NCBI GenBank assembly: GCA_022616475.1
Contig: JAKEEP010000162.1
Span: 1-59,488 of the forward strand
DNA: 59,488 nt
Direction: 5' to 3'
DNA from: Phycisphaerales bacterium
GTDB taxonomy: Bacteria > Planctomycetota > Phycisphaerae > Phycisphaerales > SM1A02
Shown here: in pieces, positions 16,911 through 38,024 of the stretch
Layout of the letters: each line of letters opens with the position of its first letter
How positions within the stretch are numbered: the stretch's first letter is position 1
Notes under the pieces: model-generated
Told to the model about the DNA's origin: nothing
Databases searched by the model: none
What the model saw: only the letters and a program-made list of their open reading frames with translations
Translations under genes and position numbers: made by a program

Positions 16911-17506
16911 GTTTTGGCGCCGATTCGCCGTTGTCGAACCAGGTCGCAGGCGTGCTTGACGGCTTTGTCAAGGTCGTCGTTGACGATGAAATGGTCATAC
17001 GCACCGCTGCGTCGAGCAGTTTCGATCTCGGCCTTTGCTGCGGCGTATCGGCGCTGAATCGCCTCTTCATTGTCGCGGCCGCGGCGACGCAGGCGCCGCA
17101 GGAGCTCCTGGTCATTTGGCGGCAGAACAAAAATCATGAAGGCGTCGGGCATTTTCTCTTTGACCTGGAGGGCGCCCTGCACATCGATTTCGAGAATGAC
17201 CAGGTTGCCCTTGCGGAGCTGCTCTTCGACCGGTCGGCGCGGCGTGCCGTAGTTGTATTTGCCGAAGACCTGGGCGAACTCGAGCAAATCGCCGGCATCG
17301 CGACGGCGGGCAAATTCCTGCTCGCTGATGAAGTAATAATCCCGCCCCTCGACATCGCCGGCAGCTTTGGGCCGGGTTGTGACCGAGACGCTGAACGTTC
17401 CGCCCAGACATCGTTCGACTTCATGGGTGATGGTGGTCTTGCCAACGCCGGACGGACCGGAGATGACCAGTAGCAAGCCATCGGATTTTGGCGCGGATTC
17501 GCTCAT
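16904..17506 (-). CDS. gmk: Guanylate kinase
   Basis: It phosphorylates GMP to GDP with ATP in the cytoplasm. The 200-residue product begins MSESAPKSDGLLLVISGPSG; P-loop 'GPSGVGKTT', GMP-binding 'VSVTTRPKAAGDVEGRDYYF' and 'LEFAQVFGKYNYGTP', and 'ILEIDVQGALQV' are all present. The length is normal. I chose the ATG at 17506, which matches the family start; a longer reading to 17620 lacks support. Its last codons overlap the start of the downstream secreted protein. Confidence 0.95.
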   Translation of the reverse strand: MSESAPKSDGLLLVISGPSGVGKTTITHEVERCLGGTFSVSVTTRPKAAGDVEGRDYYFISEQEFARRRDAGDLLEFAQVFGKYNYGTPRRPVEEQLRKGNLVILEIDVQGALQVKEKMPDAFMIFVLPPNDQELLRRLRRRGRDNEEAIQRRYAAAKAEIETARRSGAYDHFIVNDDLDKAVKHACDLVRQRRIGAKTC

Positions 17507-17601
17507 CGGCGAATAGTGTAAACGGAGGCGGGGGGTTTGCGGCGCGGGCAAGCCTGCCAGGAGGGTCTCAACATAGCGCTGGCGGCTACACTCACTGTTG
17601 C

Positions 17602-18780
17602 ATGAACGGGAAGGAGACACTTCAAGCGCCGGGCGAGCAAGGCGAGGGCGCCGTGATCGATGCCGAAGCGCTGAAGGCCCGCGTCGCGCAGCTCGAGCGC
17701 GAGCGCGAGTTCTGGCGCCGATCGGAGGAGGAGATTCGGCGCAGCGAGCAAAGCCATCGGTCGTTCATCGAACAGAGCACCGAGGGGATCTGGCGAGTCG
17801 AGCTGGAAGAGCCGATGCCGCTGAACTGGCGCGAGGAACGCCAAGTTGACCATGTGTATCGCACTTCGTACCTGGCCGAGTGCAACGACGCGATGGCCCA
17901 GATGTACGGGTATTCAAAGGCCGAGGAACTCATTGGGGCGCGGCTGGGCGACCTCCTGGTGCGCTCCGACCCGCAGAACCTCATATTCATGCGCGATTTC
18001 GTTCGATCGGGCTTCCGGCTGGTGGACGCCGAAACGCACGAGATGGATCGGGCCGGCCGGCCCAAGTACTTCCTAAACAACATGGTGGGAATCGTCGAAG
18101 AGGGCAAGCTGCTGAGGGCCTGGGGCACCCAGCGCGACATCACCGAGCGCAAGCGAGCTCAGGATGCGCTGCTCGAAAGCACTGAGCTTCAGCGGATGAT
18201 GCTGAGCGAGCTGGATCACCGCGTGCGAAATAATCTGGCGGCGCTGGCGGCGTTGATCGACATTTCCAAGCGCGACAAGAAGGATGTGACCGAGTTTGCC
18301 GAGTCGATCAAAGGACGGGTGCAGGCGATGTCAGCCGTGCACAGTCTGCTCTCGCGCGCCCATTGGCAGGCCGTGAGTTTTCGAAGCCTGATCGAATCCC
18401 TCACGCCGTTCGATTTGCGTGGATCGGTGATTCTGGATGGATCCGACGTCTTGATTACGCCGCGGCAGGTGACGGCACTGGGAATGATCGTGCAGGAGTT
18501 GATGGCCAACAGCTTGAAATATGGGGGCCTGAAGAGTCGTGGTGGGCAGGTTGCCTTGCAGTGGACGGTGCAGGACGAACCGTCAAAGCGAAGCCGGCGG
18601 CTCGATTTGACCTGGCAGGAAAGCGGCGGGCCCACGATCGACGGTATTCCAAAATCCGGACAGGGTACCGGCTTGATTGAGGGCTTTGTGCGCACCGAAT
18701 TGCGGGGCGAGGTCAAGATGACCTACCCGCCGACAGGCGCGGCGCACCGCTTCATCCTGAATCTTGACCGGCGCAGCTGA
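17602..18780 (+). CDS. PAS-domain sensor histidine kinase (HisKA_2/HWE type)
   Basis: The 392-residue protein has a short N-terminal coiled coil ('LKARVAQLEREREFWRRSEE'), a PAS domain (about 45-190, with 'FIEQSTEGIWRVEL' and 'QRDITERKRAQDAL'), and a HisKA_2 phosphoacceptor 'ELDHRVRNNLAALAALID'. A truncated HATPase follows with N-box 'IVQELMANSLKYGG' and a C-terminal 'GTGLIEGFVRTEL'. It has no membrane segment, so it is a soluble sensor. Such kinases often signal through anti-anti-sigma-type regulators; no partner lies next to it. The ATG at 17602 is preferred over an upstream reading. Confidence 0.85.
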   Translation: MNGKETLQAPGEQGEGAVIDAEALKARVAQLEREREFWRRSEEEIRRSEQSHRSFIEQSTEGIWRVELEEPMPLNWREERQVDHVYRTSYLAECNDAMAQMYGYSKAEELIGARLGDLLVRSDPQNLIFMRDFVRSGFRLVDAETHEMDRAGRPKYFLNNMVGIVEEGKLLRAWGTQRDITERKRAQDALLESTELQRMMLSELDHRVRNNLAALAALIDISKRDKKDVTEFAESIKGRVQAMSAVHSLLSRAHWQAVSFRSLIESLTPFDLRGSVILDGSDVLITPRQVTALGMIVQELMANSLKYGGLKSRGGQVALQWTVQDEPSKRSRRLDLTWQESGGPTIDGIPKSGQGTGLIEGFVRTELRGEVKMTYPPTGAAHRFILNLDRRS

Positions 18781-21141: not shown

Positions 21142-21465
21142 ATGAACAAGTCACTGTTTGCTTCGATCGCTTCGCTGCTGGTGGCTGCGGCAGCCTCAAT
21201 CGGGGCCATCAACCTCATGGGTAAGCCCGAACCAGCGACTTCCTGCTGCTGCGGGTCGTGTCCCGAGGGTTGCAATTGCGCCTGCGATGGCTCGTGCAAA
21301 GCTGCGCCGGCTGCGCGTGCCGCGCCGGCGAGTCGGCGTAACGCGATAGATCATTCACCTCTGGAGCGGGCCCGCGAAAGCGGGCCCGCTTTGCTTGGGC
21401 CGCAGCCTGGCCGCGGTAGGTTCCTTCAGCGTGCTTGCGCTTTTCTCGCTGCGAGCTGGCCTTGA
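21142..21465 (+). CDS. Membrane-anchored cysteine-rich small protein
   Basis: Begins MNKSLFASIASLLVAAAASIGAIN (a membrane anchor or signal), then 'TSCCCGSCPEGCNCACDGSC', nine Cys in about 19 residues with CxC and CxxC spacing, metallothionein-like. An Ala/Arg-rich tail follows. A strong hairpin (21365-21395) lies inside the tail-coding part, and the end overlaps the 3' end of the minus-strand gene at 21426. The functional protein may therefore be shorter than the 107 codons. Metal binding is inferred. Confidence 0.5.
   Translation: MNKSLFASIASLLVAAAASIGAINLMGKPEPATSCCCGSCPEGCNCACDGSCKAAPAARAAPASRRNAIDHSPLERARESGPALLGPQPGRGRFLQRACAFLAASWP
21365..21395. terminator. Strong stem-loop between convergent genes
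   Basis: An 11-bp perfect stem AGCGGGCCCGC/GCGGGCCCGCT with a GAAA tetraloop is followed by TTGCTT on the plus strand. Likely a terminator between the plus-strand Cys-rich gene and the minus-strand NrfA-like fragment, although it sits inside the annotated 3' coding part of the former. Confidence 0.5.
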
Positions 21466-21716
21466 CGCGCAAAGTCGATCGCCTCTGCGAGAGTGCGCGC
21501 GGTTTCGTGATCGGAGTGGAAGCCCATCCGGATGTAACCGTCATATTGGCGCGGAACGTGGGCCGGGTCGATGGTGTTCTCATCGAGCTCGACGAGTCTG
21601 AAGACGACTTGCTCGGCCTCGCGCTGGCGCGCGAAGATATTCTGCAACAGCAGCAGCACGCCAACGGTGGCCAGCGCGATGACGACTACGATGGCGACGT
21701 AGATCAGCTTGCGCAT
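21426..21716 (-). pseudogene. NrfA-like (cytochrome c552) N-terminal remnant
   Basis: The 96-codon product starts with a membrane anchor 'MRKLIYVAIVVVIALATVGV' and has 'FRLVELDENTIDPAHVPRQYDGYIR', which resembles the 'VELDExTIDPAxWGxNFPRQYDxYxRT' start of ammonia-forming nitrite reductase NrfA (written from memory, not from a search). The haem-binding body of about 450 residues is absent, so this would be a truncated remnant. A motif like the regulon palindrome lies 44 bp upstream. A decayed nrfH is at 27622-28098. It could also be an unrelated small membrane protein. Confidence 0.4.
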
Positions 21717-21759
21717 GATGGGCGCAGGATACAGCGCGTATCAAAAACACAGGCGCAGG

Positions 21760-21779: not shown

Positions 21780-21812
21780 TTCGGGTGACCCAGTGGGGCA
21801 TTGCCGCACTCG

Positions 21813-21832
21813 AACGGGGAAGTTTCCCTGTG
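21813..21832 (+). promoter_or_regulatory. Regulon palindrome, perfect copy
   Basis: AACGGGGAAGTTTCCCTGTG matches the consensus at every defined position. It points to the plus strand, towards the decayed frame and membrane-protein operon at about 21980-23047. Confidence 0.65.
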
Positions 21833-21983
21833 CCGTTGAGACAGCCGGTCGCCTCCACTGTGGTGATGATGCAGGAACTTTCAGCAACCACACTTGCGAT
21901 TATCCAGTTGTTCGCCAGCCGGCTCGATGGCGATCCCCATTCGCCCATCGTGCGCTACGGCGAAGGCGCGCATCGACAACATC

Positions 21984-24520: not shown

Positions 24521-27427
24521 CTAGGGGCAAGCACCCCAACCGCTGATGAGGGTCAATAGATCGTCAACGTTGACCAGATTGTCGTGGTTGATATCTGCAA
24601 GACAGTCCAAACATGCGCCCCATGCCGAGATGAGCGCCAGCAGATCCTCGACGTTCACGGCGTCGTTCACATTGCCCGCGGGGGCGATGTCGGCCGAACA
24701 CGCCGGGCGCACCTCGAACTGTCGCATCATCTCGTGATCCTCATGGTCGATGATGTGGCAGTGATACGGATACAAGCCCTCGTAGCCGTCAAAGCGAGTG
24801 ATCACCCGAGTTACGAATCCCGGCGGCGACTGCACCGTGTCCTTCCAGCCAATTTCGTTCGCGGCAGGCGGATACAGCGGACCGAAGGGGATTCCGGTCA
24901 CCGTGTCGAACTCCTGGCGATCGAGCACCTGCACCGACACCAGGTGCATGTGCATCGGGTGCGTCATCGATGAGCGGTTCTTCCATCCCCAGATCTCCGT
25001 TGCGCCCAGGCGCGGGAACTCGGTGATGTCATCCCACATGAGCCCATCAAGCGTCCACATGCCGTGCGGGTTGTCCTGGCACTGCGTGTCGGCGATCACC
25101 CGCAGTTCCTGGGTGCGCTCTTTCACCGACAACGCCGATGGAATCGGCTCTACAGGCGCCAGGTTCGCAGGAAGCCGGTCGGTGTCGCCCACCTGGTCCT
25201 GCACGATGAACTTCATCACGTTGGGTATCACGCCAACCCCCGGACTGCCCGGATACGGCGCGGGTGCATCGTTGGTCAGGATGATCTCAGTGCCCGCTGC
25301 ATAAGGCGCAAAATCCATCACCAGATCTAAGCGCTCACCGGGAGTGACCAGCACCTGGGTCATCGCCACCGGCGCAGGCAACAAGCCAGTGTCGCTGCCG
25401 ATCTGCCAAAACGTCGCGCCGTTGCTCAGCGAGAGGCGATACGCCCGCGAGGTACTGCCATCCACGATGCGGAAGCGGTATTTCCCCTGTTTGACGTTCA
25501 GGTACGGCCAGACCTTGCCGTTCACCAGAAGCACATCGCCGAAGACATGATCCATCATTATCTCCGGGTACTTCAGCGAGCCATCGGCGTTGAAACTGCG
25601 GTCCTGAATCGCCATCGCAATCTCGTACTCGCCGCGCGGGATGTTCAGTGCATCCTCCAGGTCATCGCGGATCAGGTAGAACCCCGCCAGACCCATTACC
25701 ACGTTCAATCGAGTGATGCCCAGCGCGTGATCGTGATACCAGATCGTCGCAGCGGGCTGGTTGTTGGGATACTCGTACACCGGCGAGGATTGGCCTGGCG
25801 GGAACGCCCACTCCGGGTAGCCATCGCTCTGCTGCGTGACCAGTCCACCATGCAAGTGCGTCACCGTCATCGGAACCAATCCCCAGATGTCCGGGCCGTG
25901 CATGCATGTGTGCACCGGCAGCACATGCTCGGTGCGAAGCTGCTGGGTCTCGAACACGCGGATGTCATTGGTCCAAGTCACCGTCACCGGCAACCCGTGA
26001 CGGGCCTCGATCGTTGGCCCCGGGTAGCTCCCGGCATATCCCCACACCCGCGTGGGCGGCAACTGGCTATGCAACTGCTGAAAGAGTTCAAGGATAGTGA
26101 TGTCGTAGTGGGCCTCACCGCCCGGGATGCCCGTGGTTGGCTGCGCCACCGCCGGCAGCGGCAGCGCATCGAGATACGGCGTCAGTTGAATGGGACACGA
26201 GACCATCGAGCACATCGTGTTCGCGCCCTGCCATATGCCGCCTTGAGCCGTGCATTGCGAACTGGTCCCCTCGACGCATGTGCCGTCGTTCAGGCAGCAC
26301 GCGCCCATGACGCCCACCGGCAGGTAAGTGATTTCCAGTTGCGGCCAATTGGCGCTGGTGCCCGACTGGCGGCTGTCGAATCGCTTGGTGTTGTTGGGGC
26401 TTGCTTCATCGCCGCGCACGATCCACCCGAAGTTCGAACCAGGGAGGTCCACCCATCCCTGCACATCGGCGACGAGGGCAGCGCTGGTCCATTCGTGGAA
26501 CACCAACGGCGCGCCCACCGCCTGCGTGGCGCTGGGCGTTGTGGCGAAGTCACCGCCAGGCGTGGTCCAGAGCACAGTGTTGTAGAAGCGGTGAAACCAA
26601 GTGGCGTCATTGGTCGCGGCCGCCGTGCCATCGCCTTCATTGCCCGAATCGTCCGAGGTGCCCTCGCCCCAGTCCGCGTTCAGGCGATGCGCGGTCACAT
26701 TAAATGCGACCCCGTTGTTCTGATTGCAGTACAGGCGCAGCAAGGCGCTCTGGATGGTCGCGCCGGCGGGAATCGCGCTCACATCGAAGTGCACGACTAT
26801 GCGCCTCCGTAGCCCGTTGCTCTGGTTGCCCGCGTACAACTGCTGCCCAGCGCCATTGGCCACGTCGCCTGCCCCACTTTCGTACAGGATGCCATCGGCG
26901 TCGGCAATGAGGGTGACCGTCACCGGCTGATTGGCGCAGGGGTTAGGCGTGCACGTCGAGTTGTCGCCCTGGTAGTCGCCACCTTGCTGGAGGCAGTTGG
27001 CTGGCGATGTCTCAACGCAGGTGCCGTTTGAGAGGCAGCATGCGCCGGTGCCGGGCGCGAGCACCGTGACCGTGCCCGCCATGCCGCCGGAGGTGCCGTC
27101 GCCATTGTCGAAGCCGTGGGGAATGCAGTAGTACCAAAACGTCCCCGTATTAGTGAAGGTATGCTGGAATGTCGGCGAGCCGGAGTCGATATCAGCATTC
27201 CACTGCTCGATGCTGCCGACCACCGATGTGGTCGTGTGGTTGCCCTCCTGCCAGATCCACTGGATCGTGTCGCCCACCGTGATGACCGGATCAACCACCG
27301 GCTGACCCTCGGGATTGATGCTGAACTCGAAGCTGTACACGTAGACGTCGATGACGGCGGCCTGCGCGCGGCTGTTCGGCACAACCGCGAAGACGGCCAA
27401 GACCAGGCAAAGTAGTGAGCGGCTCAC
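24521..27427 (-). CDS. Large secreted multicopper oxidase with cupredoxin, DNRLRE-like and dockerin-like modules
   Basis: The 968-residue protein has a signal peptide (MSRSLLCLVLAVFAVVPNSRA), an N-terminal plastocyanin-like domain ('WQEGNHTTTSV', 'FWYYCIPHG') and two Cys-rich linkers ('ACCLSNGTCVET...', 'ACCLNDGTCVEG...'). Between them is a DNRLRE-type beta domain ('ATIQSALLRLYCNQN'). A CotA/bilirubin-oxidase-type multicopper oxidase follows with copper motifs THLHGG, WYHDHALG, HPMHMHLVSVQ and YPYHCHIIDHEDHEMM. The C-terminus carries a dockerin-like 'VNVEDLLALISAWG...VNVDDLLTLISGWG' repeat. The start is GTG (27427) with AAAGGAGG close upstream, and a perfect regulon palindrome is 71 bp upstream. 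Substrate unknown; extracellular metal or phenol oxidation is plausible. Confidence 0.85.
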   Translation of the reverse strand: MSRSLLCLVLAVFAVVPNSRAQAAVIDVYVYSFEFSINPEGQPVVDPVITVGDTIQWIWQEGNHTTTSVVGSIEQWNADIDSGSPTFQHTFTNTGTFWYYCIPHGFDNGDGTSGGMAGTVTVLAPGTGACCLSNGTCVETSPANCLQQGGDYQGDNSTCTPNPCANQPVTVTLIADADGILYESGAGDVANGAGQQLYAGNQSNGLRRRIVVHFDVSAIPAGATIQSALLRLYCNQNNGVAFNVTAHRLNADWGEGTSDDSGNEGDGTAAATNDATWFHRFYNTVLWTTPGGDFATTPSATQAVGAPLVFHEWTSAALVADVQGWVDLPGSNFGWIVRGDEASPNNTKRFDSRQSGTSANWPQLEITYLPVGVMGACCLNDGTCVEGTSSQCTAQGGIWQGANTMCSMVSCPIQLTPYLDALPLPAVAQPTTGIPGGEAHYDITILELFQQLHSQLPPTRVWGYAGSYPGPTIEARHGLPVTVTWTNDIRVFETQQLRTEHVLPVHTCMHGPDIWGLVPMTVTHLHGGLVTQQSDGYPEWAFPPGQSSPVYEYPNNQPAATIWYHDHALGITRLNVVMGLAGFYLIRDDLEDALNIPRGEYEIAMAIQDRSFNADGSLKYPEIMMDHVFGDVLLVNGKVWPYLNVKQGKYRFRIVDGSTSRAYRLSLSNGATFWQIGSDTGLLPAPVAMTQVLVTPGERLDLVMDFAPYAAGTEIILTNDAPAPYPGSPGVGVIPNVMKFIVQDQVGDTDRLPANLAPVEPIPSALSVKERTQELRVIADTQCQDNPHGMWTLDGLMWDDITEFPRLGATEIWGWKNRSSMTHPMHMHLVSVQVLDRQEFDTVTGIPFGPLYPPAANEIGWKDTVQSPPGFVTRVITRFDGYEGLYPYHCHIIDHEDHEMMRQFEVRPACSADIAPAGNVNDAVNVEDLLALISAWGACLDCLADINHDNLVNVDDLLTLISGWGACP

Positions 27428-27498
27428 GGTTCCTCCTTTTTCAGCACTTCGTCAGATTCAACCTGTGCAGCAGGATGACAAGCTCAAGCTGCGGCGCG

Positions 27499-27518
27499 AA
27501 CAGGGAAACAACCCCGTT
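27499..27518 (-). promoter_or_regulatory. Regulon palindrome, perfect copy (upstream of multicopper oxidase)
   Basis: On the minus strand AACGGGGTTGTTTCCCTGTT fits the consensus at all defined positions. It lies 71 bp upstream of the multicopper-oxidase start. Confidence 0.7.
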
Positions 27519-27621
27519 CACGGAAGTTGATTCGTTCGCGTGCGATCCCCTCGCGACCCGCCGCGTCCATATTCGGTTGATCCTGGCCGGCGTAACGCAG
27601 CAACCCACCCACCCGAGGGCG

Positions 27622-28098
27622 TTACCGATGTCCTTTGTGCCCCACTTGGGAATGGCATCGCATGCAATTCGCGAGGTCGTCGTCAAGTCGGCTGTGCCCA
27701 ACGATCTCGCTCACGAACCTACTATGGCATCGCAGACAATTACCCTGGATGATCGGCGGCGTGCGCGGGTGCAACTGAATCGGCTCGTGGAAGTCCTGGA
27801 ACGTGAAGCCCCACGCGTGCCGGTAGCCGTTCTCCATCTTCGTCAGGTACTTGCCGACCAGGTCGTGCGGCACGTGGCAGTCGTTGCAGGTGGCGAAGGC
27901 GTGGTGGGCTGGAGTGCTGCCAAGATTCGTACTGCTCGCGCATGATGTGGCAGTTGACGCACGAGGTCGGGTCATTGGAGAGGTACGACCATCCGCTGGC
28001 GGCGTGGAACGTGAAGCCGCTGACGCCGGTGAAGATGCCGATGAGCAGAGGATGATCGCCGCGACGGTAATCCTGCGACGTCTTGGAGGCATCGCCAT
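27622..28098 (-). pseudogene. nrfH: NrfH-like tetrahaem cytochrome c, two frameshifts
   Basis: NrfH is the membrane-anchored small subunit that passes quinol electrons to nitrite reductase NrfA. Pieced together across frames, the region encodes 'LIGIFTGVSGFTFHAASGWS', 'NDPTSCVNCHIMREQYESWQ', 'HHAFATCNDCHVPHDLVGKY', 'MENGYRHAWGFTFQDFHEPI' and 'QGNCLRCH...NCMRCH', giving all four CxxCH haem motifs. One base is missing near 28043 (after 'AAIIL') and one extra C occurs in the CCC at about 27909, so the frame is restored after two indels. Either a decaying gene or sequencing error. It follows the CBS gene by 40 bp. Confidence 0.75.
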
Positions 28099-28137
28099 GA
28101 GGGTGCTGATCATCGCTGTCGATTGTACGGCTTGGCG

Positions 28138-28608
28138 CTACGCCGCGGCGGGGAACACGCGCAGGAGATCCATGCTGGTGATAATGCCCTGCAACCGGCC
28201 CACCTCGTCGATGACGATCAGGCGATGAACCTGATACTCAGCCATGCGTCGCGCGACAACGCTGAGAGGTTCATCAGGCTCGGCGGTCAGCGGCGTCTCG
28301 GTCATGAAATCGGCGACGATGCCAAGGTCGATCGCCTCCAGCCGCGCGCCGGTTCCACCATCGGCGAGGCTCGAAAGCAGATCGCTGGCGCCGAATCCCA
28401 AGCCGCCTCGAACACACCATTGCAGCAGGTCGGTCTTGGAAACTACGCCAATGACCTCGCCATCGTCATCCACAACCGGCACTCCGGAAATGCCGTGATC
28501 GATCAACGCGCGAGCGAGCTCGCGCGGCGAAGCCGAAGCCACAATGGAGATCGGCTTGGCGATCATGGCGTCCTTGACGAGCATTGACGACGAAGGCTTG
28601 GCGGTCAT
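28138..28608 (-). CDS. CBS-domain pair protein
   Basis: The 156-residue protein is two tandem CBS domains: 'VKDAMIAKPISIVASASPRE ... GISGVPVVDDDGEVIGVVSK' and 'VADFMTETPLTAEPDEPLSV ... VHRLIVIDEVGRLQGIITSM'. Such stand-alone pairs bind adenine nucleotides and often act as energy or stress sensors. ATG at 28608. A perfect regulon palindrome lies 81 bp upstream, and nrfH follows closely on the same strand, so the two may be cotranscribed. CBS plus universal stress proteins is typical of hypoxia or dormancy clusters. Confidence 0.9.
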   Translation of the reverse strand: MTAKPSSSMLVKDAMIAKPISIVASASPRELARALIDHGISGVPVVDDDGEVIGVVSKTDLLQWCVRGGLGFGASDLLSSLADGGTGARLEAIDLGIVADFMTETPLTAEPDEPLSVVARRMAEYQVHRLIVIDEVGRLQGIITSMDLLRVFPAAA

Positions 28609-28689
28609 GACGAACCCTCGCTCGGCTGCCGTACTGATCTGCGGCGTTTGTGCCTCCGTTGTAATGGTGGTCGTTCAGGCTCGGCAAGC

Positions 28690-28709
28690 CACGGGGAAAC
28701 CGCCCCGTT
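28690..28709 (-). promoter_or_regulatory. Regulon palindrome, perfect copy (upstream of CBS gene)
   Basis: On the minus strand AACGGGGCGGTTTCCCCGTG fits the consensus at all defined positions, 81 bp upstream of the CBS gene. The divergent transporter gene starts 177 bp on the other side. Confidence 0.7.
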
Positions 28710-28716
28710 TGCAGCC

Positions 28717-28886: not shown

Positions 28887-29657
28887 ATGGAAAGCAACAG
28901 CTTCGAGAACCCCGACGACGCCATCCGCCGCGAGCACACGGTCGAAGCGATCCGCGAAAGACTCTCGCGCGGTCCCCAGCACAGCTATCTGCGTGATTTC
29001 ATCTACGGTGCGATCGACGGAACGGTGACGACGTTTGCCGTGGTCTGCGGATCGGCGGGGGCGGGGCTTCCGGGCGCCGTTGTGATCATCCTTGGCGTCG
29101 CCAACCTCGTCGCAGACGGCTTCAGCATGGCCGCCAGCAACTTTCTGGCGATTCGCGCTGAGCGTCAGCAGCGGCACCTGACCCGCCGAACCGAGCTTGA
29201 GCACATCCACCGCTATCCCGAGGGCGAGCGCGAGGAGATTCGCCAGATCTTCGCGAAGAAAGGATTCCAGGGGCCGGAACTCGACAATGCCGTGAACGTA
29301 ATCACGGCCAGCGTCGATCGTTGGGCCGACACAATGATGCATGAAGAACACGGCGTTTCGGGACCTGGACCGTCGCCATGGCGGGCAGCGCTCGCGACGT
29401 TCGTTGCGTTCGTTGCGGTCGGATTTGTCCCGCTCGTGCCGTTCGCGCTTCAAGCGGCTGCCGGTCTGGGTCCACGCACGTTTCTCTGGAGCGCGCTTCT
29501 GACCGGAGCGGCGTTCTTCGGGACCGGCGTCATGAAGGCGCGATTTGTTCAGCAACGCGTGCTGAATTCAGGAATCGAAACGTTGATCGTCGGAGGCAGC
29601 GCTGCCATGCTCGCATACCTCATTGGTGTCTTGCTCAAAGCGGTGACTGGGACCTGA
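28887..29657 (+). CDS. Ccc1/VIT1-family membrane transporter
   Basis: The 256-residue protein has the VIT1/Ccc1 pattern: '[20 protein letters not shown]' with '[20 protein letters not shown]' in the first two helices, a charged cytoplasmic metal-binding segment ('[16 protein letters not shown]', 'MMHEEHGVS'), then three more helices. The family moves Fe2+/Mn2+ out of the cytoplasm. It is divergent from the CBS gene. In stress clusters such transporters probably detoxify ferrous iron. Confidence 0.85.
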
Positions 29658-29710: not shown

Positions 29711-30373
29711 TCAGGCTTCCACCAGACCCTCGCGGATGGCGAAGCGGACAAGCTCGCCCCGGTCATGGATGTCGAGTTTCTTCATGATCAACTCGCGGTG
29801 GCCGTCGATGGTCTTGGGGCTTCGGCTGAGCTGCTTGGCGATGTCGATGCGCGACATGCCTCGTCCGATCAGTCGCAGAACTTCCTGCTCCCGAGCCGTG
29901 AGCAGTTCTAGCCTGGACTTTGGGGCCTTATCTTGGCCGGGTTTGCGGCCTCGTGCGGGCTGAACGCGCTCCTGGACCTTGGGCCCAAGCGCGAACTCGC
30001 CGCCGACCACCTTGCGAATACCCTCGACGATCGCGTTCATCTCATCGCTCTTGCAGAAATAGCCCCAGGCGCCGGCCTTGTACGCCGCTTCGATGTAATG
30101 GTCGCGAATATAGGCGCTGAGCATGATCACGCGAACGTCTTCGTTCTGGCGGCGAAGCTCGGAAATCGCGTCGAATGGATCAGGCCCGGGCATCTCGATG
30201 TCCAAGAGCACGATCTGGGCTCTTGTGCGCTTCACTTCCTCAACCAGGGTCGCGGCGGTGGCAAGCCGGCCCACAAGCTCGAAGTCGCGCTCCAGCGCGA
30301 ACCTTGCATTCAGCCCTTCCACAAGGAAGGCGTGGTCATCGACGCAAAGGATTCGAATGGTTCGATTGGTCAT
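29711..30373 (-). CDS. FixJ/NarL-family response regulator
   Basis: The 220-residue protein has a receiver ('IRILCVDDHAFLVEGL', phospho-Asp in 'IVLLDIEMPGPDPFDAI') and a C-terminal LuxR-type HTH ('LTAREQEVLRLIGRGMSRID', 'IAKQLSRSPKTIDGHRELI'). A basic linker ('PARGRKPGQDKAPKS') joins them. Its ATG overlaps the kinase stop by 4 bp (ATGA), so the pair is coupled. It is the obvious candidate to bind the palindromic motif found upstream of the surrounding genes. Confidence 0.93.
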   Translation of the reverse strand: MTNRTIRILCVDDHAFLVEGLNARFALERDFELVGRLATAATLVEEVKRTRAQIVLLDIEMPGPDPFDAISELRRQNEDVRVIMLSAYIRDHYIEAAYKAGAWGYFCKSDEMNAIVEGIRKVVGGEFALGPKVQERVQPARGRKPGQDKAPKSRLELLTAREQEVLRLIGRGMSRIDIAKQLSRSPKTIDGHRELIMKKLDIHDRGELVRFAIREGLVEA

Positions 30374-31935
30374 TGTGATGCACTAACAACCTTTGCCAGA
30401 GCTTCTCCCAATGTCGTTCTGATCATGTCGAAGTTGGTGGGGTCGTCAATGACCAACGCGCCCAAAGCCAACCAATCATCCGCAGCGGGGCCGAAAACAA
30501 CGATTCGGCGCTTGTGGTCGGCCCGCAGGTACCGCTTGGCTGCGGCGATTGTCACGACATCCGGGTCGATGACCCACAGACGGCTCGACCCAGGGTCTTG
30601 GCCATCTGCAATTCTCGCGGTGAATTGGCCGGCCGTGATGATCGCCGCGACGAAGCTTGCGCTGCGTCGATCTCCAAGCGACACAACGGCTGTGCGATCC
30701 GGTGTGGCTTGGGCAATCGCATCGGCCCGACGAGTCGCGATCGGGACGTTCATGATGACCGTCGTCCCTTTGCCCAATTCTGATTCGATCTCGACCGATC
30801 CGCCGGCCGATTGAGCGACGCCTTGCACCAGCGACAATCCCAAGCCAGTTCCCAAGCCGCGCTTCTTGGTGGTGAAGAACGGATCAAGAGCATGCTTCTT
30901 CACTTCCGGAGCCATGCCTTCACCGGTGTCAGAGACTCCCACCTGCACGATGCCTCGGCGCTTCGTCGCACGAGCCCAAATGCGGATTTGTCCATCGCCG
31001 CGAATTGCCTCGCCGGCATTCACCACGAGATTGAGCATGGCCTGGGTAAGGCGATGCGGCGCTACCGCTAACTCGGGAAGCTCTGAGGCGAACTCGATCT
31101 CCACAGTCACGCGCTTGGGAGCAGCCTTCGCCAGCAGCGGTCCGACTTGCTTCCACCATTCCATGAGGTTGGTAACGCCCATGGATGCCTCAGCATCGTC
31201 GGGATCAAGCGCGAGCAGGTGCAGTCCATCGGAGAGCTGCTGCAGGTATGCGATGGAGCGACGCACGGCTAAGAATTGCTCCTTGGCCTTCGGTGGCAGC
31301 TCCGCGGCGTCAAGCGCATCAAGTCGAGCCCTGATCGGCAAGAGCACGTTGTTCATGTCGTGACCAAGACCGGCCGCGAGAGTTCCAATCGAAGCGAGGC
31401 GATCGGCCTGCCGGAGTTGCTCGTTGGTTGCCTGAAGTTGAGCGGTGCGCTCGTTCACCATGTCCTGAAGATGGGCACGGTGTCGCGCCAGCTCATCTTC
31501 GACTCGTTTTCGCTCGGTGATGTCATGGATGATCCCCATGAACCACGGTTCCGGCGCTCCGGGAACATCTACTCTGGAAACCGACAATTCCATGGGAAAG
31601 CGCGTTCCATCTTTCCGAACGGCGAAGAATTCCCGGGTGCGTCCAAGGATGTTGGTTTGATGCGTCTTGCGGTAGCTAGCCAGGTAGCCGTCGTGGGCCG
31701 AGTGGTGCGGTTCGGGCATGAGCACGCGGACGTTTTGCCCAACAACCTCTTCAGGCTTCCAGCCGAAAACGCGTTCAATCGAGTCGCTGGCCGACTGAAT
31801 AATTCCATTGGCATCGATGGTGACGATGGGGTCGAGCGCAGCCGCCAGCACGGCGCGATACTGCGCGATCGCCTGCTCGAGCGTTTCGTTGGATGAACTG
31901 CGTTGTTGTGTCCTGGTTGGCACTGGTGCTTTCAA
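30370..31935 (-). CDS. Sensor histidine kinase with FixL-like (probably haem) PAS domain
   Basis: About 521 residues from a TTG at 31935 (weak ribosome site; start uncertain). The PAS domain (about 25-140) contains 'MPEPHHSAHDGYLASYRKT', matching the FixL helix whose His binds haem (here H81), followed by 'ILGRTREFFAVRKDGTRFPM', where FixL has its Arg oxygen-sensing loop. A coiled coil, the HisKA phosphoacceptor 'GLGHDMNNVLLPIRA' (H192), and a HATPase ('LNLVVNAGEA', 'VSDTGEGMAPE', 'GLGTGLGLSL') follow. The C-terminus ends in a degenerate receiver-like domain. No transmembrane helices. A palindromic motif copy lies 64 bp upstream. Confidence 0.88.
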   Translation of the reverse strand: MKAPVPTRTQQRSSSNETLEQAIAQYRAVLAAALDPIVTIDANGIIQSASDSIERVFGWKPEEVVGQNVRVLMPEPHHSAHDGYLASYRKTHQTNILGRTREFFAVRKDGTRFPMELSVSRVDVPGAPEPWFMGIIHDITERKRVEDELARHRAHLQDMVNERTAQLQATNEQLRQADRLASIGTLAAGLGHDMNNVLLPIRARLDALDAAELPPKAKEQFLAVRRSIAYLQQLSDGLHLLALDPDDAEASMGVTNLMEWWKQVGPLLAKAAPKRVTVEIEFASELPELAVAPHRLTQAMLNLVVNAGEAIRGDGQIRIWARATKRRGIVQVGVSDTGEGMAPEVKKHALDPFFTTKKRGLGTGLGLSLVQGVAQSAGGSVEIESELGKGTTVIMNVPIATRRADAIAQATPDRTAVVSLGDRRSASFVAAIITAGQFTARIADGQDPGSSRLWVIDPDVVTIAAAKRYLRADHKRRIVVFGPAADDWLALGALVIDDPTNFDMIRTTLGEALAKVVSASQ

Positions 31936-31999
31936 GAGGCGGGGCCACTGACCGCATTCTAAGCAGATGAACTCAGTCGCTTGCCGAGCACCCGACCCA

Positions 32000-32019
32000 A
32001 ACGGGGTGAATTCCCCGTG
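32000..32019 (+). promoter_or_regulatory. Regulon palindrome in the divergent kinase/USP spacer
   Basis: AACGGGGTGAATTCCCCGTG has one mismatch (A for T at position 11) and is close to perfectly symmetric. It is 64 bp from the kinase start (minus) and 86 bp from the universal stress protein start (plus), so it could control both. Confidence 0.7.
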
Positions 32020-32105
32020 GTGCGAAGGGTCCGGTCATCCAAAATAGAGTACGTGTCGTCACCTCGTGATACCACCCGGCAACTCCAACAAATGCAACCC
32101 ACGTC

Positions 32106-33026
32106 ATGACAACTCTCTCCACCGCAACAAGAAATCCTCAAATCACACTCCAAGCTTTCGAAACCATCTTGGTGGCCACAGACTTCTCGGGCAATGCACG
32201 TCAAGCCTTGAATTGGGCAGTTGAGTTGGCAAGAACTCACGGCGCCAAGATCACGCTCGTTCATGCGATCGATCCGAGTCGCTCGGGCGAGCGCGAACAG
32301 CCGACGGGCGAGCAGATTCAAAAGAATTTGGCAAGCACTGCGAAGATCGTGCGCGGCTGGCAAGTGAATGCAGTCGTTGAGCACGAGATTGGCAAGCCCT
32401 GGAAGGTCATTGCCGATGCGGCCGCCAAGTTCGAAGCGGATCTCATTGTGATGGGCAAGCGCGGCGACAACACGATGCGAAGGAAGCTTCTGGGCGGCAC
32501 CGCCGACCGCGTCATTCGCACCGCGACGGTCCCGGTTCTGGTTGTTCATCCGGATGATGATCGAATTGGTCGCGGCTTCCGAAGAATATTGGCCGCAATT
32601 GACTTTTCCGAGGAGTCGCTACAGGCGCTGGAAGCGGCGCTGCGCATGGTCGCTAGCAAGAAGGACTCGACGGAGGTCGTGTTGCTTACTGTGTGCGAGC
32701 TCGGCCTGCCATACCCCGGCTTCGAGTTCGCGGCGACTCACCCCAATTACTGGGACAACATGGAGCGCGATGCGCGCCGCGACCTGGAAAAGCTCGCTGA
32801 TCCGATTCGTCGAAACGGGTTCAATGTTGAAACCAGGACAACGCGGGGCTTCGCCGGATCAGCAATCCTCGAGCAAGCCGCAATTCTCGAAGCCGATCTG
32901 ATCGCAGTTGGAACCCAGGGCCGCGGCGGCCTGAATCGCTTTCTCATGGGCAGCGTCGCCGAGCACGTGCTCGAGGAAGCGCGGTGTCCGGTGTTGACTG
33001 TTCGCAATGCAAACGCAGGAAGTTGA
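32106..33026 (+). CDS. Universal stress protein (tandem Usp domains)
   Basis: The 306-residue protein has two Usp domains: first 'ILVATDFSGNARQALNWAVE' with ATP loop 'GKRGDNTMRRKLLGGTADRV', second 'ILAAIDFSEESLQALEAALR' with 'GTQGRGGLNRFLMGSVAEHV'. Both keep the G-x2-G-x9-G-S/T ATP-binding pattern. Cytoplasmic. It shares the upstream palindrome with the kinase gene and is closely followed by the alcohol dehydrogenase gene (9 bp). Confidence 0.93.
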   Translation: MTTLSTATRNPQITLQAFETILVATDFSGNARQALNWAVELARTHGAKITLVHAIDPSRSGEREQPTGEQIQKNLASTAKIVRGWQVNAVVEHEIGKPWKVIADAAAKFEADLIVMGKRGDNTMRRKLLGGTADRVIRTATVPVLVVHPDDDRIGRGFRRILAAIDFSEESLQALEAALRMVASKKDSTEVVLLTVCELGLPYPGFEFAATHPNYWDNMERDARRDLEKLADPIRRNGFNVETRTTRGFAGSAILEQAAILEADLIAVGTQGRGGLNRFLMGSVAEHVLEEARCPVLTVRNANAGS

Positions 33027-33035
33027 GACAGTGTC

Positions 33036-34157
33036 ATGAGCCATGTCAAAGTGAAGGAGGCGAAACCCACCCATCGCGCCGGCAAGTCGTCTCGACCGGC
33101 CGCAACCATGCGTGCCTTTGTCATGCGCCGCATCGGCGAAGTGGGCGTGATGAACAAACCCATCCCCGAGCCTGGCCCGAACGACGCGATCATCCGCACC
33201 ACCGCCGCGCTCATCTGCACCTCGGATACGCACACCGTCGCCGGCGCCATTGGCGAACGGCTGAACATCACGCTTGGCCACGAAGCCGTCGGCGTCATCC
33301 ACCAGCTCGGCAGCGAAGTGGTGGGGTTCCAGATCGGCCAGCGCGTCGCGGTCAACGCCATCACGCCCTGCTATCAATGCAGTTATTGCCAGCGCGGCTA
33401 CTCATCACAATGCGGCGGCATGCTCGGCGGTTGGAAGTTCGCCAACACTAAAGACGGCAGCATGGCCGAGTACTTCCACGTCAACAACGCCCAGGCCAAT
33501 CTCGCGCCCATTCCCGACACCCTCACCGATGAGCAAGCGGTGTACTGCGCCGACATGCTCTCGACCGGCTTCGTCGCCGCTGAGTACGCCAACATCCCCA
33601 TCGGCGGCACCGTTGCGGTCTTCGCGCAGGGACCTGTCGGCCTCATGGCCACCGTCGGCGCGCGCCTGCTCGGCGCCGGTCTGGTCATCGGCGTTGAAAG
33701 CATGCCCAATCGGCAGGCGATGGCGAAACGCTTCGGGGCTGATGTGATCATCGATCACACCAAGACCGATCCGGTCGCCGAGATTCTCAAGCTTACCGGC
33801 GGCCAGGGCGTTGATGCGGCCATCGAGGCCCTCGGCTCGCACGCGACCTTCCAGGCGTGCATCAAGGCCACCAGGCCCGGCGGCACGATCTCAAACGTCG
33901 GCTACCACGGCGACGGCGACTCGGTCCCCATTCCGCGCCTCGAGTGGGGCGTGGGCATGAGCGACAAGACGATCCGAACCGCGCTGTGCCCGGGCGGGTC
34001 GGAGCGCATGAGCCGCCTCATGCGCCTCATCGAGCACGGCCGCGTTAATCCCCTGCCCATGACCACGCACCGCTTCCGCTTCCAGGACATCGAGCGAGCC
34101 TTCCGCATGATGCAGACCAAGGAAGATGGCATCATCAAACCGTTGATAACGTTTTGA
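33036..34157 (+). CDS. Zinc-dependent alcohol dehydrogenase
   Basis: The 373-residue medium-chain dehydrogenase has the catalytic zinc site around 'LICTSDTHTVAGAI ... LGHEAVGVIHQLG' (C, H, E) and an NAD(P)-binding stretch 'VAVFAQGPVGLMATVGARLL' (GxGxxG-like variant). It ends with the usual family segment. A 24-residue basic N-terminal extension (MSHVKVKEAKPTHRAGKSSR) precedes the family start 'MRAFVMRRIG' at 33108, which might be the true start. It resembles isopropanol/secondary-alcohol dehydrogenases; fermentative redox balancing in low oxygen is plausible. Downstream of the USP gene in one operon. Confidence 0.88.
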   Translation: MSHVKVKEAKPTHRAGKSSRPAATMRAFVMRRIGEVGVMNKPIPEPGPNDAIIRTTAALICTSDTHTVAGAIGERLNITLGHEAVGVIHQLGSEVVGFQIGQRVAVNAITPCYQCSYCQRGYSSQCGGMLGGWKFANTKDGSMAEYFHVNNAQANLAPIPDTLTDEQAVYCADMLSTGFVAAEYANIPIGGTVAVFAQGPVGLMATVGARLLGAGLVIGVESMPNRQAMAKRFGADVIIDHTKTDPVAEILKLTGGQGVDAAIEALGSHATFQACIKATRPGGTISNVGYHGDGDSVPIPRLEWGVGMSDKTIRTALCPGGSERMSRLMRLIEHGRVNPLPMTTHRFRFQDIERAFRMMQTKEDGIIKPLITF

Positions 34158-34235: not shown

Positions 34236-35792
34236 TTATCCCACGAGCGCAGGCTGGATCAGCAAGAACGTCCAGACGGTGATCAGCGCGATCGCGACAA
34301 CGTTCAGCCAGAATCCGGCCTTGAGCATCTGGCGCATCGTGACCATGCCGGTGCCGAGGGCCATGGCGTTGGGCGGCGTGCCGACGGGCATCATGAACGC
34401 CAGGCTTGCCGCGACTGTCGCGGGAAAGATCAGCAGGTATGAGTGCACGCCCAGGCCAGGCGCGATCGCGGCGAGGATCGGCACCAGCGTCGTCGCCGTC
34501 GCTGTGTTGCTGGCGATCTCGGTGAACATCACGACGCCGGCTACAACCAGGACCACGAGGGCGATGGTGGGGATGCCGACGACGCCTGCATGATGCGCCA
34601 GGCTGCCCAGGAACTCGGCGACCCCGTTGCGCTCGATCGCAGCAGCCAGGCTCAAGCCGCCTCCAAAGAGAATGAGAATGCCCCATGGCAAGCGCGCTGC
34701 GGTGGGCCAATCCATGACGCCCCACCCGCCCGCTCCGGCTGCCTTTCGGCCAGCAGGGATGATGAACAGAGCCAGCGCACCGAGGATCGCTATCCCCGAA
34801 TCCGTCAACCCCATCAACGGATGAATGGCACTCTGGCCGGAACCAATCTGCATTTTCACTAGAAGAGGCCGAAACACCCAGGCGAGAGCCGTCATGGTGA
34901 ACACGATGAACGTCGCCCATTGAGGGCGGGTCATCGGGCCCAGTTCCGCGAAAGACTTCACGATGTGCTCGCCGCCGCCCTCGACTGGCTTCATCCGGAT
35001 CGGGAAGAGCAAGCGCGTGAGCAGCAGCCACGCGATCGGCAGGAACACAGCTGCCAGAGGCACGCCGATCACCAGCCACTGCATGAAGCTGATTTCGCGC
35101 CGATACGGCTGTTCGATCTCATCGCGAATGAAGGCTGCAAGGAACGTGTTGGGCGGCGTGCCGATCAGCGTCGCCACGCCGCTGATCGACGATGCGTAGG
35201 CGATGCCCAGCACGACGCAGGCGGCAAAGTTGGACTGCTCGACGGTTGAATCGGCGCTTGATTCGCTGCGCTGGCGCACGAGCGCAATGACGCTGAGGCC
35301 GATTGGAAGCATCATGGCGGCCTTGGCGGTGTTGGAAACGAAGCCGCCCATCATCGCGGTCGCGAGCATGCACCCGCCGACCATATTGATTGGTTTAGTC
35401 CCGACGAGTCGCAGCGTGATCAGCGCGATGCGCTGGTCGAGCCCGCACCTTTGCATCGACAGCGCCAGGATGAACCCGCCCATGAACAGGAAGATCAGAT
35501 CAGAGGCGTACGGCGCCGCGGCATCACGAATACTCCCGGCTCCAAGCATGGGCAGCATCGCCACCGGCAAGAGCGCGGTGACCGCGAGATCGACCGCTTC
35601 GGTGATCCACCACACAGCCATCCACATCAGGAGCGCCGCGGTGGCGCGGCCGGCGTGCGAGAACATCGCCCAGTCGCCGGACATGTCCTGGTACTGCGCT
35701 GGGAGCAGGAGATAGGCGAGAAGGCCGAGCACCGGACCGCTCACAAGGTCGATGCGCTTGATGGAGGGAATGGCGGCCGTTCTCAATCGCAT
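34236..35792 (-). CDS. DASS-family sodium/dicarboxylate or sulfate symporter
   Basis: The 518-residue integral membrane protein has about 12 helices. 'LLMWMAVWWITEAVDLAVTA' and 'LIFLFMGGFILALSMQRCG' (family start), 'GGFVSNTAKAAMMLPIGLSV' (SNT motif) and, in the C-terminal half, 'FTEIASNTATATTLVPILAA' (second SNT motif) define the DASS/SLC13 fold. It imports C4-dicarboxylates or related anions with Na+. Its start is 20 bp after the preceding minus-strand gene, so it is probably cotranscribed with the 35813-36169 gene. Confidence 0.9.
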   Translation of the reverse strand: MRLRTAAIPSIKRIDLVSGPVLGLLAYLLLPAQYQDMSGDWAMFSHAGRATAALLMWMAVWWITEAVDLAVTALLPVAMLPMLGAGSIRDAAAPYASDLIFLFMGGFILALSMQRCGLDQRIALITLRLVGTKPINMVGGCMLATAMMGGFVSNTAKAAMMLPIGLSVIALVRQRSESSADSTVEQSNFAACVVLGIAYASSISGVATLIGTPPNTFLAAFIRDEIEQPYRREISFMQWLVIGVPLAAVFLPIAWLLLTRLLFPIRMKPVEGGGEHIVKSFAELGPMTRPQWATFIVFTMTALAWVFRPLLVKMQIGSGQSAIHPLMGLTDSGIAILGALALFIIPAGRKAAGAGGWGVMDWPTAARLPWGILILFGGGLSLAAAIERNGVAEFLGSLAHHAGVVGIPTIALVVLVVAGVVMFTEIASNTATATTLVPILAAIAPGLGVHSYLLIFPATVAASLAFMMPVGTPPNAMALGTGMVTMRQMLKAGFWLNVVAIALITVWTFLLIQPALVG

Positions 35793-35812: not shown

Positions 35813-36169
35813 TTAGTGGGCTTCTTCCAAATCAGCAATCGCCGCCAGAATGAGCGGCATGCCAATGAATGTCATCATGCTAAGCGCCACGCAGAAGCCC
35901 AGAAGGACCAGACCGGCCTCAAGCACCGCAATGGAGACAATCGCTGACCCGATGGCCATGACCCCAATGATGCCCAGCGCGAGCTTGAATGCACCCCACG
36001 CCGATCTTGATGGGGACGGTGAGGGCACTTCTTCCGCAGCGACACCTTCCTGTTCTTCGACCTGAGCGGCTGGGGGCAGCGCTTCTGGATTGCGTTGTAT
36101 TGGCGGGAGAGTCCACCGTGATGCAAACGGCGCGGGTTGCGGTATCAAGGTTGGCGCACATGCGGACAT
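35813..36169 (-). CDS. Small two-helix membrane protein
   Basis: The 118-residue protein starts at the ATG at 36169 (GGAG upstream). A Pro/Glu/Ser-rich N-terminal half (MSACAPTLIPQPAPF...) is followed by two helices ('LALGIIGVMAIGSAIVSIAV', 'GLVLLGFCVALSMMTFIGMP'). No family recognised. Motif 36236-36255 lies 66 bp upstream and the transporter gene follows, so it may be the first gene of a regulon operon. Confidence 0.55.
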   Translation of the reverse strand: MSACAPTLIPQPAPFASRWTLPPIQRNPEALPPAAQVEEQEGVAAEEVPSPSPSRSAWGAFKLALGIIGVMAIGSAIVSIAVLEAGLVLLGFCVALSMMTFIGMPLILAAIADLEEAH

Positions 36170-36235
36170 GGCATTAGCTCCTTCAAGCAGATGCGATCTG
36201 TCTGATTCAAAGTACGACCTGCTCGACGGGTTGGA

Positions 36236-36255
36236 CACCCGGAAACCACCCCGTT
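36236..36255 (-). promoter_or_regulatory. Regulon palindrome (two mismatches)
   Basis: On the minus strand AACGGGGTGGTTTCCGGGTG, two mismatches to consensus, 66 bp from the small membrane-protein start. Confidence 0.6.
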
Positions 36256-36290
36256 GACGGCTGCAGCGTGCGCATCGTGAATGTGCGCTG

Positions 36291-36310
36291 GACAAGGTGA
36301 TTTCCCTGTG
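36291..36310 (+). promoter_or_regulatory. Regulon palindrome (three mismatches)
   Basis: GACAAGGTGATTTCCCTGTG, three mismatches, 85 bp upstream of the ECF sigma gene; it is back-to-back with the previous site. Confidence 0.5.
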
Positions 36311-36395
36311 TTGCGCGGCCCTTCTTTGACGTTTACTCATCGCAACGTTCGTGCGATGAACGTTCGAAGGAAGGATCGTTCGCAAGGAGCTTGCC

Positions 36396-37022
36396 ATGGT
36401 CACTGCTGCCAGACAACTGAACGACCTGACCACGCATGAGCTGATTGAGCACTGCAAACATGGGGAATCAGAAGCCTGGAGCGCGCTGATTACGCGATTC
36501 GGTTGCTTGGTCCATTCGATTCCACACCGATACGGGATGTGTGAAGCCGATGCCGATGATGTCTTTCAGAGCGTCATCGCCAAGCTGTTTCGGTGCCTGG
36601 CACAAGTAAAAGATCCGCGGAAACTTCCTTCATGGCTAATCACTGTCACGCGCCGGGAGTGCTGGCGTCTGCAAGCGGGGCGATGGGAGACAGGGGACCT
36701 TGCGGATCGCTCTCCTATTTCAGATGAGTCGGTGGAGGACCAGGCCACGCGGCGGGAGCAACAGCGCATCGTACATGAGGCTCTGGGACGCCTGTCGGAG
36801 CCGGAGCGACAGCTCATCACGGCGTTCTTTCTGGATTCGACTTCGCCTAGCTACGCCGCGGTTGCTGCCCGGCTTGACCGCAAGATCGGCAGCATCGGGC
36901 CCACGCGTGCCCGCATCTTCAGGAAGCTCGAAAGGACTCTCATCGAACTTGGTCTCCATACAGAACTTGATCTCGACTCTTCGATGGCATTGGCCCGACG
37001 CCAGAACCGAAACGCAGCCTAG
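36396..37022 (+). CDS. ECF-type RNA polymerase sigma factor
   Basis: The 208-residue protein has the sigma70 region 2 stretch 'GESEAWSALITRFGCLVHSI' with 'ADDVFQSVIAKLFRCLAQV' and region 4 'ALGRLSEPERQLITAFFLDS ... SYAAVAARLDRKIGSIGPTR'. Such ECF41-like/planctomycete sigma factors recruit polymerase to stress genes. ATG at 36396. A regulon motif copy is 85 bp upstream, and a universal stress protein gene follows after 42 bp, so it could be both controlled by the motif and a further regulator of the region. Confidence 0.88.
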   Translation: MVTAARQLNDLTTHELIEHCKHGESEAWSALITRFGCLVHSIPHRYGMCEADADDVFQSVIAKLFRCLAQVKDPRKLPSWLITVTRRECWRLQAGRWETGDLADRSPISDESVEDQATRREQQRIVHEALGRLSEPERQLITAFFLDSTSPSYAAVAARLDRKIGSIGPTRARIFRKLERTLIELGLHTELDLDSSMALARRQNRNAA

Positions 37023-37064
37023 GCGGCCTTGTGCCCGCGAAATCCAAGAGACAGGAACATTGCT

Positions 37065-38024
37065 ATGACAACCATGAAACCGCAGTTCGAGTTGAAGCAA
37101 ACAGCGGCGCCACGCCAGCAAGTTCGCAAGATTCTTGTCGGCGCAGATTTCTCAGATAACACCAGCAACGCCCTGAAATGGGCGACAGAACTTGCTGCGT
37201 CGCTTCATGCAGAGATCATCCTCGTGCACGCCATCGATAGCGACCTCCCCGCCATCGCGCATGCTCGCGAACAGTTGAGCCAACGGTTTCGCGACAAGCT
37301 CGACGCCCTGGGCGCGCAATTGAAGGTCCGCGGCGTCAAGGCGAGCAGCGAATGCCGCATCGGAAAGGCCTGGCAAGTGATCCCGCTTTCCGCTCAGGAA
37401 CACCACGTCGATCTCATCGTCCTTGGAGCTCATGGGCGGTCATCGATGGCTGAGCGTTTCCTGGGCAGCACGGCGGCGCGAGTCATAAAGACCACTTCGA
37501 TCCCTGTGCTCACCATCCACCGTGGAATGTCCTCCAAAGTTGGACAGAATCCCATCCGGACGATTCTCGTGACAACCGACTTCTCCGAGGAAGCCTCGTT
37601 GGCAACGAGCATGGCGGCACGCCTGCTGAAGGCTTCGGGCAAGCCGTCGAGGCTGATCCTGCTTCACACGGTGGCGCTGTTAGTCGATCACGGCATTCCT
37701 GATATTCCCATGCCTATTCCGCACTATTGGGATGAGGCTGAGCGAACCGCCGCGAAACAGTTAGAGACAATGGCGGCCGGCCTGAAGTCTGACTTGCTGC
37801 AGGTTGAAGTAAAGACGTTCCGCGGGTACCCGGCGGAGTCCATTCTCCACGAGGCGCAAGCTCTGAAGGCCGACTTGATTGCCATGGGCACGCAGGGGCG
37901 CACCGGCATCAATCGCTTTTTCATGGGCAGCGTCGCCGAGCGCGTCTTGCATCATGCGCCGTGCCCCGTGCTCACCGTGCGCAAGCCTGACGCGGACGAA
38001 CCGATCAGGCTGTCGGCGGATTGA
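37065..38024 (+). CDS. Universal stress protein (tandem Usp domains)
   Basis: About 319 residues from the ATG at 37065 (CAGGAA upstream; an earlier in-frame start would add 12 residues). Two Usp domains: 'ILVGADFSDNTSNALKWATE' with 'GAHGRSSMAERFLGSTAARV', and 'ILVTTDFSEEASLATSMAAR' with 'GTQGRTGINRFFMGSVAERV'. Both keep the ATP-binding G-x2-G-x9-G-S pattern. It is paralogous to the 32106 protein. Downstream of the sigma-factor gene in the same orientation. Confidence 0.92.
   Translation: MTTMKPQFELKQTAAPRQQVRKILVGADFSDNTSNALKWATELAASLHAEIILVHAIDSDLPAIAHAREQLSQRFRDKLDALGAQLKVRGVKASSECRIGKAWQVIPLSAQEHHVDLIVLGAHGRSSMAERFLGSTAARVIKTTSIPVLTIHRGMSSKVGQNPIRTILVTTDFSEEASLATSMAARLLKASGKPSRLILLHTVALLVDHGIPDIPMPIPHYWDEAERTAAKQLETMAAGLKSDLLQVEVKTFRGYPAESILHEAQALKADLIAMGTQGRTGINRFFMGSVAERVLHHAPCPVLTVRKPDADEPIRLSAD

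Follow-up and report, generated by a model that had tools for sequence, protein, structure and literature searches.

A putative FixL-type haem kinase and its NarL-type partner regulator are linked to a GGGAA-N4-CCC box in Phycisphaerales and may form an oxygen switch without FixK

A sensor kinase with a FixL-like PAS domain, encoded among stress genes of a planctomycete, raises the question of what it senses and which genes it controls. The stretch of DNA analysed here (the window; 59,488 nt) belongs to a 3.66-Mb genome bin that is 88% complete, and the closest named homologs come from Phycisphaerales, Planctomycetota. The kinase ORF begins with a TTG start codon and encodes one PAS domain, after which come a HisKA-type H-box, the HATPase domain and a further domain at the C-terminus. 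The gene for the partner regulator shares 4 nt (ATGA) with the stop of the kinase gene. The features of the pair are as follows.

30370-31935, minus strand: sensor kinase of PAS - DHp/HATPase architecture with a C-terminal receiver-like domain, 521 aa
31519-31863, minus strand: FixL-type PAS domain of the kinase, residues 25-139 (PF00989, FixL 1dp6, superposition on BjFixL)
31693-31695, minus strand: codon of His81, aligned with the BjFixL haem ligand His200
31633-31635, minus strand: codon of Arg101, aligned with BjFixL Arg220
31348-31365, minus strand: H-box GHDMNN of the kinase, residues 191-196, with the predicted phospho-acceptor His192
30382-30696, minus strand: C-terminal receiver-fold domain of the kinase, approximately residues 414-518, undetected by Pfam
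29711-30373, minus strand: NarL/VraR-type response regulator (receiver-GerE), 220 aa

The C-terminal domain of the kinase has a receiver fold by structure comparison (Z 12-14), with either Asp or Glu at the phospho-acceptor position, varying among relatives; our guess is that it might act as an internal phosphate sink or be a pseudo-receiver. The window also encodes a second PAS kinase, which is of the HWE type and unrelated to the FixL-like one (17488-18780, plus strand).

Residues 25-139 of the kinase match the Pfam PAS family PF00989 (3e-15), and the best matches among solved structures are all FixL haem domains (1dp6 at E 4e-27), with DosP and its relatives ranking below them (6e-10 to 1e-9), a similarity that chance does not explain. 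Identity to BjFixL is 43-46%. The initial annotation had placed the candidate haem ligand at residue 81, and this is its position in the translated ORF, where the segment SAHDGYLASYRKTHQTNILGRTREFFAVRKDG spans residues 79-110. In the alignment, the distal triad I96/L117/V119 corresponds to BjFixL I215/L236/I238, and we take V119 to be the residue that S. meliloti FixL has at this point, which would give the I/L/V triad of that protein. BjFixL residues R206, H214 and I218 are replaced by S87, N95 and R99. Across the subfamily there is an Arg at position 218, the sequence GRTR is found where FixL reads GIGR, and R206 is often missing. We assume that the counterpart of BjFixL R206 in S. meliloti FixL is R200. 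The R200A/Q/E/H variants of the S. meliloti protein retain haem and have almost the same spectra, yet they autoxidise (PMC10765370); a missing R206 therefore does not exclude haem in the PAS domain described here.

An AlphaFold model of the kinase (mean pLDDT 85; PAS blocks mostly 86-96) superimposes its PAS on the BjFixL haem domain with an rmsd of 1.4-1.7 Å over 116-119 residues (Z ~18). Residues 35-152 of the model match BjFixL 154-269 and, on the basis of the offset of 119 ahead of a two-residue insertion, H81 is equivalent to H200 and R101 to R220. H81 lies in the modelled helix 77-91, and its facing the pocket was judged by superposition on FixL, the AlphaFold model itself containing no haem. 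That the PAS carries a FixL-type His and Arg loop had been proposed at the outset, with the proviso that an H81 facing away from the pocket would overturn the idea; alignment and model bear out both residues, and the proposal survived the superposition of the haem-free model. The domain displays the FixL PAS fold with its His on the F-alpha helix, in the same place as in cluster 3 of the FixL-like haem PAS domains, which includes DosP and is a wide family of domains as opposed to a system (PMC10468136). The positions of the FixL haem ligand His200 and of the O2-responsive Arg220 are filled by H81 and R101 and, from the sequence and the model together, we infer that this PAS binds haem. The His is present in >9,700 bacterial sequences of the FixL/DosP cluster (60%; PMC10468136), so such a PAS is by itself ordinary.

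The His81 position is invariant in 25 relatives and the Arg101 position is kept in 22, and three more distant relatives have the His without the Arg. Among 80 loci from many phyla, drawn by search patterns that lay outside the Arg, 78 keep the Arg220 position. A PAS domain without a cofactor, in which His81 is retained for structure or dimerisation and something else is sensed, would fit the three relatives that lack the Arg, as well as the ~40% of the FixL-like PAS cluster that have no His and are otherwise similarly conserved (PMC10468136). We consider this very improbable, given that the His, the Arg and the I/L/V triad are kept together in the subfamily, that the fold agrees with FixL to within 1.7 Å and that the gene context points to low oxygen.

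Orthology of the kinase to FixL was rejected, because it scores 167.9 bits against a cut-off of 850 (NCBIfam NF041777 sens_FixL_Rhizob). Likewise, in a PAS tree of 130 columns, in which the deeper branching order is not resolved, the Phycisphaerales sequences form one clade of 25 rows (SH-aLRT 100) that is separate from BjFixL. A DosP row serves as the outgroup of this tree. Two loci titled Chloroflexi and Vicinamibacteraceae (L144 and L149) also fall inside the Phycisphaerales clade, and are probably mislabelled bins.

The partner had been called NarL/FixJ-type, and the first half of this label stands. Like VraR, NarL and MctR, to which it is closest by sequence, the regulator consists of a receiver and a GerE domain, and among solved structures it matches VraR at 1e-25 and FixJ at 4e-9. 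Identity as FixJ was rejected (62.2 bits versus a cut-off of 255; NCBIfam NF006900). Unlike VraR, NarL and MctR, it falls below every curated NCBIfam equivalog cut-off shown and has a clade-specific recognition-helix region, RSPKTIDGHRELIMKKL, which is almost fixed within the clade. The annotation was also right that FixK is not nearby: the window yielded no gene of the CRP/FNR type, and no clear FixK/FNR gene was found in the 88%-complete genome, which contains two weak partial HTH_Crp_2 matches outside the window. Two paralogous regulators in the same genome are 60-61% identical to this one. The paralog on contig C226 belongs to a kinase-regulator pair (locus L234) whose kinase bears a different, non-FixL PAS, and the one on contig C104 (locus L310) is a regulator.

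The genes around the pair share a DNA box with the consensus ACRGGGAA-N4-CCCCGT, present in six copies in the 21.8-36.3 kb cluster of the window, with the nearest start codon 63-95 nt from each. The boxes and the genes of this island are listed in order of position.

21426-21740, minus strand: ORF of 104 aa that has a membrane segment at its N-terminus and matches no family
21812-21833: box 4, 95 nt ahead of this membrane-anchored ORF
24521-27427, minus strand: multicopper oxidase with a dockerin-type C-terminus
27498-27519: box 3, 70 nt ahead of the multicopper oxidase gene
27622-28113 (27622-28237 for both frames together), minus strand: NapC/NrfH-like cytochrome c, broken frame (PF03264)
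28138-28608, minus strand: CBS-domain protein (PF00571)
28689-28710: box 2, between the CBS gene (80 nt) and the VIT1 gene (176 nt)
28887-29657, plus strand: VIT1-family transporter (PF01988)
31999-32020: box 1, CCACGGGGAATTCACCCCGTTT (minus strand), between the kinase gene (63 nt) and the USP-ADH operon (85 nt)
32106-33026, plus strand: tandem universal stress protein USP1 (PF00582)
33036-34157, plus strand: zinc alcohol dehydrogenase, colinear with USP1 (PF00107/PF08240)
34236-35792, minus strand: DASS (Na/sulfate) transporter (PF00939)
36235-36256: box 5, 65 nt ahead of the pair formed by ORF 35813-36169 and the DASS transporter gene
36290-36311: box 6, 84 nt ahead of the ECF sigma factor and USP2 genes
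36396-37022, plus strand: ECF sigma factor
37029-38024, plus strand: second tandem universal stress protein, USP2 (PF00582)

The NapC/NrfH-like cytochrome gene sits behind the CBS gene, and its N-terminal part (GWSYLSNDPTSCVNCHIM) and C-terminal part are in two different frames, owing to a frameshift or an assembly error near 27.94 kb. The multicopper oxidase is fused to a cupredoxin-like N-terminal portion, a region similar to DNRLRE/CBM96 and, at its end, a dockerin of the GC type. Assignment of the 104-aa ORF downstream of box 4 to the start of NrfA was not supported, and a search of the genome for NrfA found none above the cut-off.

Inverted repeats of the form ACGGGG-N6-CCCCGT occur in the kinase/USP and CBS/VIT promoters. 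This symmetric pattern was dropped as too strict, since it missed most orthologous promoters, and was replaced by an asymmetric GGGAA-N4-CCC box, the wider consensus being derived from the promoters of orthologous kinases. Two crossed matrix tests link the box to the kinase-regulator pair, and on this basis the palindrome regulon of the initial annotation can be regarded as real. A matrix made from 12 sites in relatives' kinase promoters only (matrix A) was run on the window and returned the same six sites, at 19.0-25.2 bits, while other window sites (opposite-strand readings aside) and a reversed control scored <=11.7 bits, the control peaking at 11.6. Conversely, a matrix made from the six window sites only (matrix B) was run on 25 orthologous kinase promoters and found the box in 13 of them above the 95% null level, against 1.25 expected; the null was taken from random windows of the same loci, which include true sites and so make the count conservative, and the 25 loci are related, so that the matches are not all independent. 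The genome contains four exact matches to CRGGGAAN4CCCCGTT, every one of them in the window at 21.8-32.0 kb. When two mismatches are allowed, the numbers are little higher than in the control; these genome-wide counts were made by pattern searches as opposed to matrix scans. Exact boxes elsewhere in the relatives were not counted as regulon, because they lie mostly inside predicted ORFs or near genes unlike those of the cluster.

We examined 100 relatives and one phylum-wide sample for the distribution of the pair, which is patchy: it is common within the family and order but seldom seen outside them. A kinase match at 1e-60 was found in 5 of 246 genomes drawn from the phylum, one of them being the window's own. 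In relatives the regulator is mostly 47-68% identical and adjoins the kinase in nearly all loci, and the sensor parts vary, with a FixL-type PAS in most. Alcohol dehydrogenase homologs (77-79% identical) are encoded near the kinase in three loci (L145, L148 and L162), in some of which CBS proteins or USPs are also close by. In G299, a planctomycete of another family, two loci each contain the box more than once. This genome has a second copy of the kinase-regulator pair (locus L230, G299:C3) with several box-like sites around it.

These data also bear on the identity of the protein that binds the box. The two close paralogs could bind the same sequence, and the box also stands ahead of ECF sigma and transporter genes, as might be expected if its binder were one of the NarL-type paralogs, or a factor of another kind, with the kinase and regulator genes as just one target. 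This is quite unlikely in our view, given that the box accompanies the pair in different genera and also in a second family of the phylum, and that neither the surroundings of the C226 pair nor the short sequence examined next to the C104 regulator contained it. Moreover, its GGG...CCC half-sites fit those of NarL-family sites such as OsdR/DevR (PMC5069765).

A further link is to the cbb3 oxidase. In G299, a single strand carries, in order, a box, a FixG-like ferredoxin (ccoG), a CcoI-type ATPase (ccoI), DsbD_2/SafE, a second box, a cbb3 subunit III-like cytochrome (ccoP), COX1 (CcoN), FixO (ccoO), a FixS-like protein (ccoS), the FixL-like kinase (its PAS 69% identical to that of the window), the regulator and a CBS protein. 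In the single-contig genome G008, a boxed ccoNO gene lies ~4 kb from the pair. We took the best score of the window matrix within 4.2 kb upstream of each FixO match, with a threshold of 14 or more, which was reached at 9 of the 17 cbb3 loci in kinase-bearing genomes and at none of the 18 in relatives from the order that lack the kinase. Two matches inside the ccoN coding sequence (G025 and G058) were not counted as promoter sites, leaving 7/17 versus 0/18 (Fisher p 0.003); three of the seven come from one genus, so there are fewer events than counts, and one (G044) is ~680 nt ahead of ccoN. A convincing box is absent from the other 10 of the 17 loci. No cbb3 FixO gene was found in the window's own genome, at 88% completeness.

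Use of the cbb3 oxidase is tied to low O2 and, together with the almost invariant O2-responsive Arg220, this linkage argues against a haem PAS that reports NO, CO or the haem redox state as a switch for nitrosative or redox stress. Such a role could be accommodated by the NrfH-like cytochrome in the cluster, by the autoxidation of the SmFixL R200 variants (PMC10765370) and by a possible effect of the Arg at position 218 and the frequent loss of R206 on ligand preference or autoxidation; overall we regard it as unlikely.

We consider it likely that the kinase and regulator constitute a hypoxia switch that resembles DevR, does without FixK and senses through a haem domain of the FixL type. In this soluble, haem-based O2 switch, the PAS would hold haem via His81, with Arg101 taking the O2-responsive part of FixL Arg220. 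Kinase activity would change when O2 is lost, and the kinase is predicted to phosphorylate the regulator encoded by the overlapping gene. The regulator would most likely be an activator that binds ACRGGGAA-N4-CCCCGT boxes 60-100 nt ahead of start codons. In its own genome it may act on its own operon and on a microaerobic/stress island, the putative targets being the USPs, alcohol dehydrogenase, CBS protein, NrfH-like cytochrome, multicopper oxidase, transporters and ECF sigma factor, and in several relatives it may also act on the cbb3 oxidase genes. One step here would then achieve what rhizobia do via FixLJ and then FixK.

The resemblance to the rhizobial FixL-FixJ(-FixK) system lies in the PAS, where the ligand His, the O2-responsive Arg and the hydrophobic distal residues all have counterparts, in the HisKA-type kinase that comes after it and in the link to cbb3 (fixNOP/GHIS) genes. 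In contrast to that system, the kinase is non-orthologous, has a single PAS and a receiver-like C-terminus, and has R206 and H214 replaced, whereas the regulator is of the NarL/VraR type, with a box directly at putative target genes and no clear FixK found in the 88%-complete genome. In pairing a putative haem-type O2 sensor kinase with a NarL-family regulator, the system is similar to DevS/DosT-DevR (DosR) and OsdK-OsdR. The DevS/DosT and OsdK sensors use haem-GAF domains; the window's kinase gives no Pfam match to GAF, only to PAS, which is of the FixL type, and the sequence and spacing of the box differ, as does the phylum. The USP and zinc alcohol dehydrogenase genes that surround the OsdR locus bear a GGG...CCC palindrome recognised by OsdR, and here too a palindrome is found at USP and ADH genes clustered around the pair (PMC5069765).

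A bolder reading, which we hold to be somewhat more likely than not, is a Phycisphaerales-centred oxygen-signalling system. A haem kinase of the FixL type, working with a NarL-type regulator, would directly control the cbb3 oxidase and dormancy-like stress genes through the GGGAA-N4-CCC box without FixK, and different sensor heads would be swapped while the kinase-regulator core stays constant. Few studies seem to have dealt with oxygen control in Planctomycetota, and we found no description of a planctomycete FixLJ or oxygen-sensing two-component system of this kind in the non-subscription literature. What is new is the regulon, meaning the box and its putative targets, and not the FixL-like PAS. 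The analysis yields a named candidate sensor, regulator, DNA box and list of targets. As proposed, the system combines two classic designs, the FixL one of haem-PAS sensing and cbb3 control with the stress regulon known from DevR/OsdR, and it suggests that FixK is a dispensable relay.
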